This document shows positions 7,091 through 9,152 of a DNA stretch of 64,000 bases, one piece after another. A program made the position numbers and the translations under genes. Source of the DNA: Humibacter albus DSM 18994 (GTDB lineage: Bacteria > Actinomycetota > Actinomycetes > Actinomycetales > Microbacteriaceae); NCBI RefSeq assembly GCF_000421825.1, contig NZ_ATXT01000011.1, positions 248,001 to 312,000 of the forward strand, given 5' to 3'. Every line of letters starts with the position of its first letter. The first letter of the stretch is position 1. A model generated the notes under the pieces. That model ran no database searches, was not told the origin of the DNA, and worked only from the letters and a program-made list of their open reading frames with translations.

Positions 7091-7096
7091 AGCCTA
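7091..7096 (-). promoter_or_regulatory. Probable -10 box of polA (leaderless start)
   Basis: TAGGCT, then GGCTTCC (7 nt), then the GTG start of polA; no SD sequence. The -35 region would fall in the first structured repeat copy (7111-7190), so the repeat may touch polA expression. Confidence 0.5.
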
Positions 7097-7110
7097 CAAG
7101 CGGCCTCGGA

Positions 7111-7270
7111 CAGGCGATTGAGGGTTGGACAGCGAAGCTTGCTTCGATGGCCGGCCCGATTGAGCCTGTTGGTCGGCGTAGCCGCGAATACAGGCGATTG
7201 AGGGTTGGACAGCGAAGCTTGCTTCGATGGCCGGCCCGATTGAGCCTGTTGGTCGGCGTAGCCGCGAACA
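7111..7270. repeat. Structured repeat element, two tandem copies (80-bp period)
   Basis: Copies at 7111-7190 and 7191-7270 differ at one base. Each reads: outer stem ACAGG, then CGATTGAG, an inner imperfect hairpin centred on CGAAGCTTGCTTCG, then CGATTGAG again, the complementary outer strand CCTGT, and a tail GGCGTAGCCGCGA. The same design with different stem sequences recurs after tRNA-Leu (8623-8702, 8864-8943). The copies lie between the divergent polA and thioesterase genes. The open frames across them look like chance translations. Confidence 0.85.
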
Positions 7271-7363
7271 CACGCGAGTGACGCCAGGATGGTGAAGTCC
7301 GCTTCGATGCCGGCTCCATCTACCGCCGGCCGGAGGTTGCCGGTGAGCACCTACAGGAGAGCC

Positions 7364-7792
7364 ATGTCCGAAGCCGAGAAGCATGCCGCCCCCGACGCGC
7401 TCGCCTACGTCAGACAGCGAGGAATGGGCGCGCTTGCGGCGAAAATGGGCATCGAGATGATCGAGTTCTCGGTGGACCGCGCGGTCGCCACCATGCCGGT
7501 CGAGGGCAACACGCAGCCGGCGGATCTGCTGCACGGCGGGGCGTACGTCGTGCTCGGCGAGACGCTCGGGTCGATGTCGGCGAACCTGTGGGCCGGAGAG
7601 GGCCGGCTGGCCGTGGGCATCGAGATCAACGCCACTCACACCCGGTCGGCGACGAGCGGCATCGTGACCGGCGTCTGCACGCCGGTGCACCTCGGACGAA
7701 CTCTGACCACGCACGAGATCACCGTCACCGACGACCGGGGCCGCCGATGCTCGACGATCCGCATCACGAATCTGATCAAGGACCGCGGGTAG
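7364..7792 (+). CDS. Hotdog-fold thioesterase (PaaI-like)
   Basis: A 142-aa protein of the PaaI/YdiI type, expected to hydrolyse acyl-CoA thioesters in the cytosol; the natural substrate is unknown. The HGGAYVVLGETLGSMSA stretch matches the conserved HGG-start of the hotdog helix with its catalytic acid, and GIEINATHTR and TEITVTDDRGR-like strands follow (here THEITVTDDRGRRCS). The ATG at 7364 has AGGAGA only 3 nt upstream. An in-frame GTG at 7343 has a better-spaced GGAGG (7332-7336) and would add seven residues, so the start is uncertain. It converges on the ANTAR regulator gene, with 13 bp between the stops. In other actinobacteria a thioesterase gene is also seen between polA and this regulator. 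Confidence 0.88.
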   Translation: MSEAEKHAAPDALAYVRQRGMGALAAKMGIEMIEFSVDRAVATMPVEGNTQPADLLHGGAYVVLGETLGSMSANLWAGEGRLAVGIEINATHTRSATSGIVTGVCTPVHLGRTLTTHEITVTDDRGRRCSTIRITNLIKDRG

Positions 7793-7805
7793 GGCGCGAT
7801 GCCGC

Positions 7806-8408
7806 CTACTTCTTGGCGGCGAGCTGGTCGATGATCGCCTTGGCCACGTCGTGCATCGTGAGGCGGCGGTCCATGGATGCCTTCTGGATCCAGCGGAACG
7901 CCTCCGGCTCGCTGAGTCCCATCTTCTCGTTCAGCAGACCCTTGGCGCGATCGACGAGCTTGCGGGTCTCGAAGCGCTCGTTGAGATCGGCGACCTCGGC
8001 CTCGAGCGCGATGATCTGCGCGTGACGAGCGAGAGCGATCTCGATCGCCGGCAGCAGGTCGTTCGGCGTGAACGGCTTGACGACGTAGGCGAGGGCGCCC
8101 GCTTCGGTGGCGCGCTCCACGAGCTCCTTCTGGCTGAAGGCCGTGAGCAGCACGACGGGGGCGACGTGGTTCTTGGAGAGGCGTTCGGCGGCGGAGATGC
8201 CGTCGAGCTGCGGCATCTTGACGTCCATGATGACGAGGTCAGGTCGCAGCTCGGTGGCGAGGGCGACGGCGGTCTCGCCGTCGCCGGCTTCGCCGACCAC
8301 CTCGAACCCGTTGTCGCGGAGGATCTCGACGATGTCGAGACGGATCAGCGATTCGTCTTCCGCGACGACGACGCGGCGCGGGACGGCGGTGTTCTCAGTG
8401 TCTGTCAC
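7806..8408 (-). CDS. ANTAR-domain response regulator (transcription antiterminator)
   Basis: A 200-aa regulator: a receiver domain (about 10-125) with VVVAEDES, phospho-acceptor Asp in VIMDVKMP (D62), VVLLTAFS and VKPF, followed by a C-terminal ANTAR domain (about 135-195; FETRKLVDRAKGLLNEKM then SEPEAFRWIQKASMDRRLTM). ANTAR proteins bind paired hexaloop hairpins in nascent RNA and suppress termination. Its phosphorylating kinase is not in the window. The GTG at 8408 is preferred: TAGGCT lies 8 nt before it, and the sequence from there reads TDTENTAVPRR. An ATG at 8414 would add two residues but sits only 2 nt after that box. The gene is found close to polA and pyk in many actinobacteria. Confidence 0.93.
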   Translation of the reverse strand: MTDTENTAVPRRVVVAEDESLIRLDIVEILRDNGFEVVGEAGDGETAVALATELRPDLVIMDVKMPQLDGISAAERLSKNHVAPVVLLTAFSQKELVERATEAGALAYVVKPFTPNDLLPAIEIALARHAQIIALEAEVADLNERFETRKLVDRAKGLLNEKMGLSEPEAFRWIQKASMDRRLTMHDVAKAIIDQLAAKK

Positions 8409-8416
8409 GAGCATCA

Positions 8417-8422
8417 AGCCTA
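8417..8422 (-). promoter_or_regulatory. Probable -10 box of the ANTAR regulator gene
   Basis: TAGGCT, the same hexamer as before polA, 8 nt upstream of the GTG. An overlapping alternative, TACCGT at 8421-8426, is 6 nt before the ATG at 8414, so the pairing of box and start is not certain. Confidence 0.4.
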
Positions 8423-8539
8423 CGGTATGGGCGATCGACGTGAGTGCGCGCCCGCATGCTCGTGTCGCCGAGCAGAGTGATATCGCCCATGCCTGCGCCG
8501 CGATAGGGTGATGGTCGGCGTCGCGATGCGGTGCCGTGG

Positions 8540-8622
8540 GCCGGTGTGGCGGAATGGCAGACGCGGAGCACTCAAAATGCTTTGTCCGAAAGGACGTGTG
8601 GGTTCGAGTCCCACCACCGGCA
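8540..8622 (+). tRNA. tRNA-Leu (anticodon CAA)
   Basis: An 83-nt class II tRNA. The acceptor stem GCCGGTG (8540-8546) pairs perfectly with CACCGGC (8615-8621), discriminator A8622. The anticodon loop reads CTCAAAA, anticodon CAA, decoding UUG. A long variable arm (TGTCCGAAAGGACG region) and a T-arm GGGTTCGAGTCCC identify the leucine type. CCA is not encoded. The last 13 nt of the gene are the beginning of a 93-bp sequence that is repeated 241 bp downstream. Confidence 0.95.
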
Positions 8623-8702
8623 CACGCGATTGAGGTTCGGGAGCACGAGTTCGCTCGTGCTCCCGAACCGATTGAGTGTGTGGAGTGGCGTAGCCGCGAC
8701 CA
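8610..8702. repeat. 93-bp direct repeat, copy A, beginning inside tRNA-Leu
   Basis: Matches 8851-8943 with one mismatch. After the tRNA end it holds a structured element: CACACG outer stem, CGATTGA, a perfect 16-bp hairpin GGTTCGGGAGCACGAG / CTCGTGCTCCCGAACC (8634-8649, 8654-8669) closed by TTCG, then CGATTGAG, TGTGTG, and the tail GGCGTAGCCGCGA. This is the design of the polA-side repeats with other stem sequences. Confidence 0.9.
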
Positions 8703-8703
8703 C

Positions 8704-8745
8704 CGTGATGAGGGGGATCGCCTGAAGGTGGTCCCCCTCATCACG
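8704..8745. terminator. Long hairpin after tRNA-Leu and repeat copy A
   Basis: Arms CGTGATGAGGGGGA (8704-8717) and TCCCCCTCATCACG (8732-8745) pair perfectly; pairing continues inward through wobbles to a TGAA tetraloop, giving a stem of about 19 bp. There is no U-tract on either strand. It could end the tRNA-Leu transcript. Confidence 0.6.
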
Positions 8746-9152
8746 TATCAATGGAGCGGGACTCGAACAGCCGGCGGAGCCGGCGTGGTCGATGGGACCG
8801 CGGCGAGAGGCTCCGCGGAGCGCGAAGCGGTGCGTGGAGGGCGTCGGGGACCCACCACCGGCACACGCGATTGAGGTTCGGGAGCACGAGTTCGCTCGTG
8901 CTCCCGAACCGATTGAGTGTGTGGAGCGGCGTAGCCGCGACCGCACGCGATGCGCGAAGCGGTGCGTGGACGGCGTCGAAGACCTCGCACCCGCTCCGGC
9001 TCAGATGAGCAATCCGCCTCCCGTCTCTGGCTCGGCGACCTCGCCGCTGGATACCGTGCACTCGTGACCCCCGACCGGGGGTATTCGAGGTTCAGTGCTT
9101 CCGGCTATGGATCACCGTAAAGCACACGAAGACACACAGGGGGTGTGTGGGT
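8746..9152. other. Gene-free repeat debris between tRNA-Leu and the phosphatase gene
   Basis: No convincing gene. It holds copy B of the 93-bp repeat (listed separately) and a 27-nt motif beginning GCGCGAAGCGGTGCGTGGA that occurs near 8819 and again near 8951. At 8754-8768 the minus strand reads GTTCGAGTCCCGCTC, like the T-loop and 3' T-stem of a tRNA, but the rest of a tRNA is absent. Open frames here are short and translate the repeats. Confidence 0.6.
8851..8943. repeat. 93-bp direct repeat, copy B
   Basis: Second copy of 8610-8702, including the last 13 nt of tRNA-Leu (CCCACCACCGGCA) and the whole structured element; the single difference is T to C just before GGCGTAGCC. The change turns the tail into GCGGC-GTA-GCCGC, a perfect small hairpin. 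The duplicated tRNA 3' end looks like an attachment-site or insertion footprint. Confidence 0.88.

Follow-up and report, generated by a model that had tools for sequence, protein, structure and literature searches.

Short folded repeats at gene ends, tRNA ends and promoter-like sites in Humibacter albus and related actinobacteria look like target-matching mobile elements

Some elements use the 3' ends of tRNA genes as attachment sites, and in group I and group II introns the target just 5' of the element pairs with a sequence inside the element on the same strand. Among short bacterial repeats, repetitive extragenic palindromes (REPs) and the REP doublets forming hairpins (REPINs) are defined, in parts of two papers on them, by a conserved GTAG or GTGG directly 5' of a hairpin (PMC8266576, PMC6006769), and CGTC REPs appear in part of another as being without a known transposase (PMC3733652). 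For the insertion sequences (IS) of the IS200/IS605 family, a portion of one of these accounts has the site chosen by pairing of an internal guide with the flanking target (PMC6006769), and tandem interspaced guide RNA (TIGR) arrays are presented, in part of a further paper, as 8-12-nt alternating repeats with ~9-nt spacers and a Nop-domain gene alongside (PMC12045711). Here we analyse a repeat family found in a 64,000-nt stretch of Humibacter albus DSM 18994 (Microbacteriaceae; contig NZ_ATXT01000011.1, positions 248,001 to 312,000; hereafter the window) and in other actinobacterial genomes. Its ~80-nt units share a covarying, strand-specific fold with a symmetric helix of G.A and U.U pairs, their arrays start at host landmarks, and at two genes the outer 5' arm is present in genomes that have no unit there. 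The family looks like an undescribed kind of target-matching mobile element, and the open-licence literature that we searched held no description of it.

Each unit consists of a 5' arm, the motif CGATTGAG, an inner hairpin (hairpin A), a second CGATTGAG, a 3' arm and a tail hairpin (hairpin B). A preliminary description of the window had listed four copies; all are real, at 80 nt each, although its coordinates were one base too high. Sequence comparison and matches to the family model place unit 1 at 7110-7189 on the plus strand (5' arm 7110-7114, motif 7115-7122, inner hairpin, motif 7157-7164, 3' arm 7165-7169, tail hairpin) and its tandem copy, 99% identical, at 7190-7269 on the same strand, between two divergent genes, polA (by Pfam) and one for a thioesterase. 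Behind them, at 7270-7330 (+), comes a third, degenerate unit of the tandem, the first 40 nt of which are 70% like unit 1; its extent was judged by eye and its end is approximate. This array begins 13 nt beyond TAGGCT (7091-7096, minus strand), which by eye is a -10-like hexamer on the divergent polA side and may belong to a promoter. The second pair of units comes after tRNA-Leu (CAA) (8540-8622, +), the end of which two annotations predict at 8622 and 8623. We take A8622 as its last base, and the same A is the first paired base of the unit that follows (8622-8701, +). The next unit (8863-8942, +), identified like the previous one by sequence comparison and family-model match, belongs with it to a 92-nt duplication, the second half of which (8851-8942) also includes 13 nt of the tRNA 3' end. 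These two units are 99% identical to each other and 64-65% identical to unit 1. Upstream of the tRNA lies a decayed unit (8426-8505, +; 16.6 bits and E = 0.038 with the family model, weak alone), and a related genome has an intact unit at the equivalent place upstream of tRNA-Leu (L203). This decayed unit, the degenerate third unit and the duplication with the tRNA 3' end go beyond the preliminary description, while the parts that it did report are present, namely both motifs in each copy, the tail GGCGTAGCCGCGA, the pairing outer arms (ACAGG/CCTGT on the polA side, ACACG/TGTGT on the tRNA-Leu side) and a perfect 16-bp inner stem with a TTCG loop. In an Rfam scan of the window, tRNA was the sole match, with no family above its gathering score for the units. 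The window contains eight copies of CGATTGAG, every one inside the four units; the chance mean is 2.73 and eight were reached in 2 of 100 shuffles, so that the count by itself is only mildly unusual. Chance is excluded instead by the arrangement of the motifs and the recurrence of the units.

Further copies, which the preliminary description had proposed to seek with a covariance model, exist across genus, family, order and class. We sampled one genome per species, used a family model built from 15 units and wider models for the order and class, and applied stricter filters in searches of more than 40 genomes; the E-values of these models are rough. With the 15-unit model the window's own genome has 23 matches at E <= 1, and all five genomes of its genus have matches at E <= 0.001 (18, 56, 67, 6 and 25, in total 172, the lowest count being that of an 87%-complete genome). 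Matches were found in 8 of 299 genomes of the family at E <= 0.01. The wider models, with the own genome counted, reach 11 of 396 genomes in the order (E <= 0.001) and, now with looser relatives, 28 of 394 in the class (E <= 1e-4). A false match is probable in at least one of the listed cases (G346), and most genomes of family, order and class have no unit that these models find. Units occur singly or in head-to-tail arrays with a period of 79-80 nt, one array holding six near-identical units. In other families of the class, loci L310, L315, L321, L323, L329, L332 and L339 have the same architecture, several of them at tRNA ends, with an altered motif pair, for example GACGCAGG with CCAAGGAA; the motif can thus change while its place in the fold stays.

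The comparison of these copies supports a selected fold. Pairing holds for 87.6% of the cells when 15 units are aligned with MAFFT, against 69.6% when shuffled and 33-44% when slid, and both sides have changed at 18 of 26 pairs. In the model alignment of 129 matches, which was fitted to the structure, 89.7% of 3129 cells pair (68.1% shuffled, 31-40% slid), the covariation score is 0.560 against 0.167, and all 26 modelled pairs have both-side changes. RNAalifold, run with no structure given, returned 23 pairs in the same stems. Further copies do exist and their stem changes pair well above both kinds of control, so that the refuting outcome named in the preliminary description did not occur and its idea of a selected fold is supported. 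The region between the stems had been taken for a conserved internal loop, and is instead a non-canonical helix that itself covaries. Set opposite itself, CGATTGAG gives C-G, G.A, A.G, U.U, U.U, G.A, A.G and G-C. At position 4 x 5', the first U.U, the 124 distinct units have T.T (81), C-G (23), T.C (12), C.T (3) or another pair (5), the second U.U is still T.T in 115, and the closing pair (position 1 x 8') is C-G in 112, T-A in 8, T.G in 2 and other in 2. Both sides of the motif helix are therefore replaced together, U.U by C-G and C-G by U-A. An extra G.A/A.G step lies within the inner stem in 78 of the 124, and in the others mostly standard pairs take its place. One antisense match to a palindrome (L247:1419-1499) was excluded from these motif-helix counts and from the context, hexamer, G.U, arm-exchange, polarity and tag counts given here.

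The outer arms differ from the inner fold in that one of them appears to be host sequence. In three genomes of the genus the end of purH is occupied, reading CAC TGA and then the unit, with TCAGT as its 3' arm. For the family, purH was compared across 30 genomes with one locus from each. Of these loci 29 were readable (L281 was not), and they end in CAC TGA (19), CAC TAG (6) or CAC TAA (3), with CAT TGA in the window's own genome; the family model found no unit at any of them. At rpoC, 29 loci besides the own genome's read TAC or TAT AAC TGA (6), AAC with TAG or TAA (16) or otherwise (7), and with the family model none of the 29 has a unit, the only one being at the own-genome rpoC (L374). Because it occurs in genomes without a unit there, the outer 5' arm at purH and rpoC is host sequence. 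It had been proposed that both stems changed in step; their changes do pair, but at purH and rpoC part of this is likely target-guide matching rather than ordinary compensation, since the host arm exists without the element. At an rpsA-like gene with S1 domains, L249 has a unit with ACAGCTGA on both sides and the window site is empty. Across 95 arrays, the target is repeated directly after the last unit over 5-8 nt in 13, over all 9 letters in 23 and over fewer than 5 in 59, and a repeat of at least 5 nt occurs in 3.7% of re-paired controls (L278 was left out of these counts and of the hexamer counts below). Own arms pair at 4.66 of 5 positions on average, against 3.14 of 5 when exchanged between loci (93 loci). 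In 35 pairs of loci the hairpin cores are at least 88% identical, yet the arms differ by at least 2 letters. The clearest case comes from a single genome, in which L260 (rpoC, ATAAC/GTTAT) and L263/L265 (ACTGA/TCAGT) have cores that are 97% alike. Such pairs could have arisen either by rewriting of the guide on moving or by swapping of cores through gene conversion.

The places where arrays begin are as characteristic as the fold. Gene contexts were taken from a simple purpose-made gene caller, validated within the window, and placed 97 arrays. Divergent genes flank 36 of them and convergent genes 9; beside co-directional genes, 26 lie behind and 26 ahead. Where an array comes after a same-strand gene, it overlaps the stop codon or tRNA 3' end in 32 of 35 cases (tRNAs in 5 of the 32), sharing the gene's last 3-27 nt, and the stop codon then falls within the first arm, within the motif or early in hairpin A, as in TAC TGA CGATTGAG. 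The other three are a decayed copy and two arrays at hisE, the phosphoribosyl-ATP pyrophosphohydrolase gene, which by eye touch a -10-like hexamer with their 3' end. In 43 of the 61 arrays behind a divergent gene, the opening TA finishes a TANNNT hexamer of the opposite strand, against none of 34 gene-end arrays. By eye, at least five of the remaining 18 merely continue an upstream unit missed by the search, as does L246, which is counted among the 43. For 23 of the 43, unit and predicted start codon are 10-13 nt apart, a distance compatible with a putative leaderless promoter. Beyond the genus, the landmark is the 3' end of a tRNA (Leu, Pro, Val, Met, Phe, Lys, His) or of transfer-messenger RNA (tmRNA) for 21 of 57 arrays, with L318, a probable false match at the same place as L356, left out of the count. 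The same landmarks recur between lineages: the rpoC stop codon is occupied in three genomes of the genus and, judged by the last residues, in one other genus, and a gene end ..YRKLTRD* (an ABC-type ATPase in G000) is occupied in two families. At locus L011, around 1995-2033 (G000 C14), a unit comes after GGGTTCGAGTTCCACA, apparently what is left of a tRNA 3' end, although no tRNA gene was detected at this place.

Outside the G.A columns, G.U outnumbers A.C by 161 to 41 in the 124 distinct units, which marks one strand as the folding strand. If the fold acted in mRNA, this bias would be expected to be strongest where the folding strand is sense, and it is weakest in >E> arrays. By context, G.U to A.C is 41:8 in <E<, 74:11 in <E>, 11:3 in >E< and 32:19 in >E>. 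The arrays lie behind a divergent gene in 62 of 97 cases, of which 26 (<E<) have a folding strand antisense to the genes on either side. As strand-specific folding is strong in just that setting, these counts favour single-stranded DNA, or else an RNA to which the element itself gives rise, over a role in mRNA. Transcription termination was rejected as a common function, since divergent genes flank 36 of the 97 arrays and a terminator-like hairpin is retained downstream of the unit at the rpsA-like gene.

We propose, with moderate confidence, that the units are non-autonomous repeats of ~80 nt, mobile now or formerly, that act as a folded single strand and have their site chosen by base pairing. 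The host target would be the 5' arm, an A and ~4 nt just ahead of the first CGATTGAG, and the 3' arm, complementary to it, would be followed by hairpin B and often by a copy of the target. The internal arm would pair with the target strand and so guide insertion to the position directly 3' of the target, and repeated insertion or duplication beside the landmark may have built arrays whose later units decay. The first unit scored higher than the last in 29 of 41 multi-unit arrays, lower in 9 and equal in 3 (Wilcoxon p = 0.0004), and arrays thus tend to decay away from the landmark. Copies would be retained where the target itself is conserved. More tentatively, though we regard it as a real possibility, these may be minimal mobile elements of a class-wide actinobacterial family that work without a Y1 enzyme, find conserved host boundaries through single-strand pairing and have the guide rewritten to fit every new target as they insert, which would let one hairpin core move to sites of unrelated sequence. 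Several observations weigh against mobility by target pairing. About 20 gene neighbourhoods have units in two to four genomes (the same position was checked by eye for some), and these, some with fold-preserving differences, fit host function or slow turnover. A guide by itself leaves unexplained why the targets are mostly functional boundaries. The gap between own and exchanged arms is small, because arms share composition, the 23 downstream matches over all 9 letters are probably additional units that the search missed and not copies of the target, and gene conversion could produce the core-identical pairs. Both arrays of the window run opposite to the decay trend (scores 77.8 then 83.6, and 89.5 then 91.5). 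Finally, no enzyme was found: the Y1 transposase domain PF01797 was not detected in any of the 22 unit-carrying genomes searched (0/8 and 0/14), some of them incomplete, and among 111 neighbour genes no transposase or mobile-element family is among the 25 commonest of 196.

The main rival explanation is a host-maintained boundary element, which spread long ago and whose hairpin is now useful beside a stop codon, tRNA 3' end or promoter, for example in shielding transcripts or separating neighbouring units, its arms having been fitted later by compensatory mutation. The shared neighbourhoods speak for it, as do the stems at purH, which differ by paired changes between L225 and L259, a TAC/TAT difference at rpoC that is matched in the 3' arm of one TAT copy (L260) and wobble-paired in the other (L197), and the first unit, which is usually the best preserved. 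We nevertheless consider it less likely than the mobile reading, given that relatives without a unit keep the same genes, that congeners range from 6 (in the 87%-complete genome) to 67 matches, and that near-identical cores with different matched arms are hard to reach by gradual compensation. Moreover, on the promoter side the folding strand is antisense to the neighbour gene, so that one shared RNA role does not fit. This bears equally on the idea that the unit acts in transcripts, as an mRNA 3' end, a tRNA trailer or a small RNA. Units do directly follow stop codons and tRNAs on the sense strand, and their TTCG and CTTG loops and tandem G.A steps are also used by RNA; against this stand the G.U excess, strong in <E< and weakest in >E>, the lack of an Rfam family and, by eye, the rpsA-like gene's own terminator-like hairpin after the element, and we hold such a role to be unlikely.

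An origin as ordinary REP/REPIN or IS200/IS605-derived repeats, moved by a Y1 transposase (the REP-associated tyrosine transposase, RAYT, or TnpA), would account for small intergenic palindromes with a strand-specific fold and for target pairing like that of IS200/IS605 guides, as far as these are covered in parts of the sources (PMC6006769, PMC8266576). It is very unlikely for the present family. The RAYT link suspected in the preliminary description finds no support in the 22 genomes without PF01797, the control search being positive in 5 of 14 known genomes. Only 2 of 128 units have GTAG or GTGG immediately ahead (5') of the outer stem or of hairpin A, and the guide follows hairpin A on its 3' side instead of preceding it. 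An explanation by chance, or by a direct repeat that proteins bind as a double strand with no fold, has almost nothing left to recommend it: the two motifs are indeed direct repeats, but covariation is far above the shuffled and slid controls and the motif copies covary across their helix, which refutes it.

The genes next to units are mostly ordinary chromosomal genes. Nine neighbours were scanned, comprising five housekeeping genes (S-adenosylhomocysteine hydrolase, AICARFT/IMPCHase, RNA polymerase Rpb1 domain 5, seryl-tRNA synthetase and class II D/K/N tRNA synthetase), UvrA, DUF1697, OmdA and one without a family. Elsewhere in the window, the open reading frame at 9213-10862 matches Pfam Acid_phosphat_B in two stretches and looks like a duplicated acid-phosphatase-like protein. 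A second repeat family, from other phyla, has the same CGATTGAG-hairpin-CGATTGAG core within a longer hairpin (loci L017, L018, L019, L027, L034, L043, L052, L064, L070, L082, L087, L090, L096, L100, L102, L106, L113, L114, L120, L128 and L132, on contigs named Desulfobacteraceae, Geobacteraceae, Planctomycetota, Chromatiaceae, Nitrospiraceae, Bdellovibrio and others). These loci were chosen by the CGATTGAG motif itself, and their likeness to the main family is no proof of shared ancestry. Several copies have terminal inverted repeats near GGCAAGAAATAAGTT / AAGTTATTTCTTGCC, which makes this second family look like a miniature inverted-repeat transposable element (MITE); ten of its loci gave no Rfam match.

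In the actinobacterial family, the host target, the matching arm and the non-canonical helix can all be read from genomes, which makes target choice by base pairing testable before an enzyme is known. Rewriting of the guide on insertion, if true, would be a way of changing target, and we know of no report of such a change. The motif helix is an unusually clean natural case of covariation within a tandem G.A/U.U helix. For annotators, the family is a caution that a stop codon, a tRNA end or a -10-like hexamer in these genomes is often also part of a repeat.

How, then, does the family relate to the systems with which we began? TIGR arrays are likewise tandem structured repeats, but the units are ~80 nt long with self-complementary hairpins, and that identity was rejected on their size. 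The terminal inverted repeats of DDE-type MITEs are not found, the ends of the 128 units matching at 0-8 of 12 positions, most commonly at 4 and never at more than 8. Where such MITEs would have a target duplication of fixed length, the arrays vary, with 5-8 nt repeated in 13 of 95, all 9 letters in 23 and fewer than 5 in 59. Elements that attach at tRNAs resemble the units in their position at tRNA and tmRNA 3' ends and in a target sometimes repeated on the far side; an 80-nt unit, however, has no integrase gene, and units also stand at stop codons and promoters. The exon binding of group I and II introns offers a likeness in pairing, set against units of 80 nt with no Rfam match that lie mostly outside genes. 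Like GTAG and CGTC REPs and REPINs, the units are short intergenic palindromes present in many copies, interspersed and folding on one strand. They differ in being ~80 nt long, with two hairpins, a G.A/U.U helix and an arm complementary to the target, in starting at tRNA ends, stop codons and -10-like hexamers, and in the lack of a detected RAYT in the 22 genomes; with this and the rarity of the tag, REP/RAYT identity was rejected. The family thus resembles REPs and IS200/IS605 ends in its possible working, yet no Y1 enzyme was detected in those genomes and nearly all units lack the GTAG tag. With IS200/IS605 ends and their miniature derivatives it shares single-strand hairpins and guide-type target pairing: the 3' arm pairs in sequence with the flanking host target, and would serve in insertion as a guide does. 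The arms differ from copy to copy, and no TnpA was detected in unit-carrying genomes, which a helper enzyme in a past host could still account for. A position just 5' of a hairpin foot holds for hairpin B and not for hairpin A, and what sets the units apart from IS200/IS605 is a single guide between two hairpins, which could pair with the target on either side.

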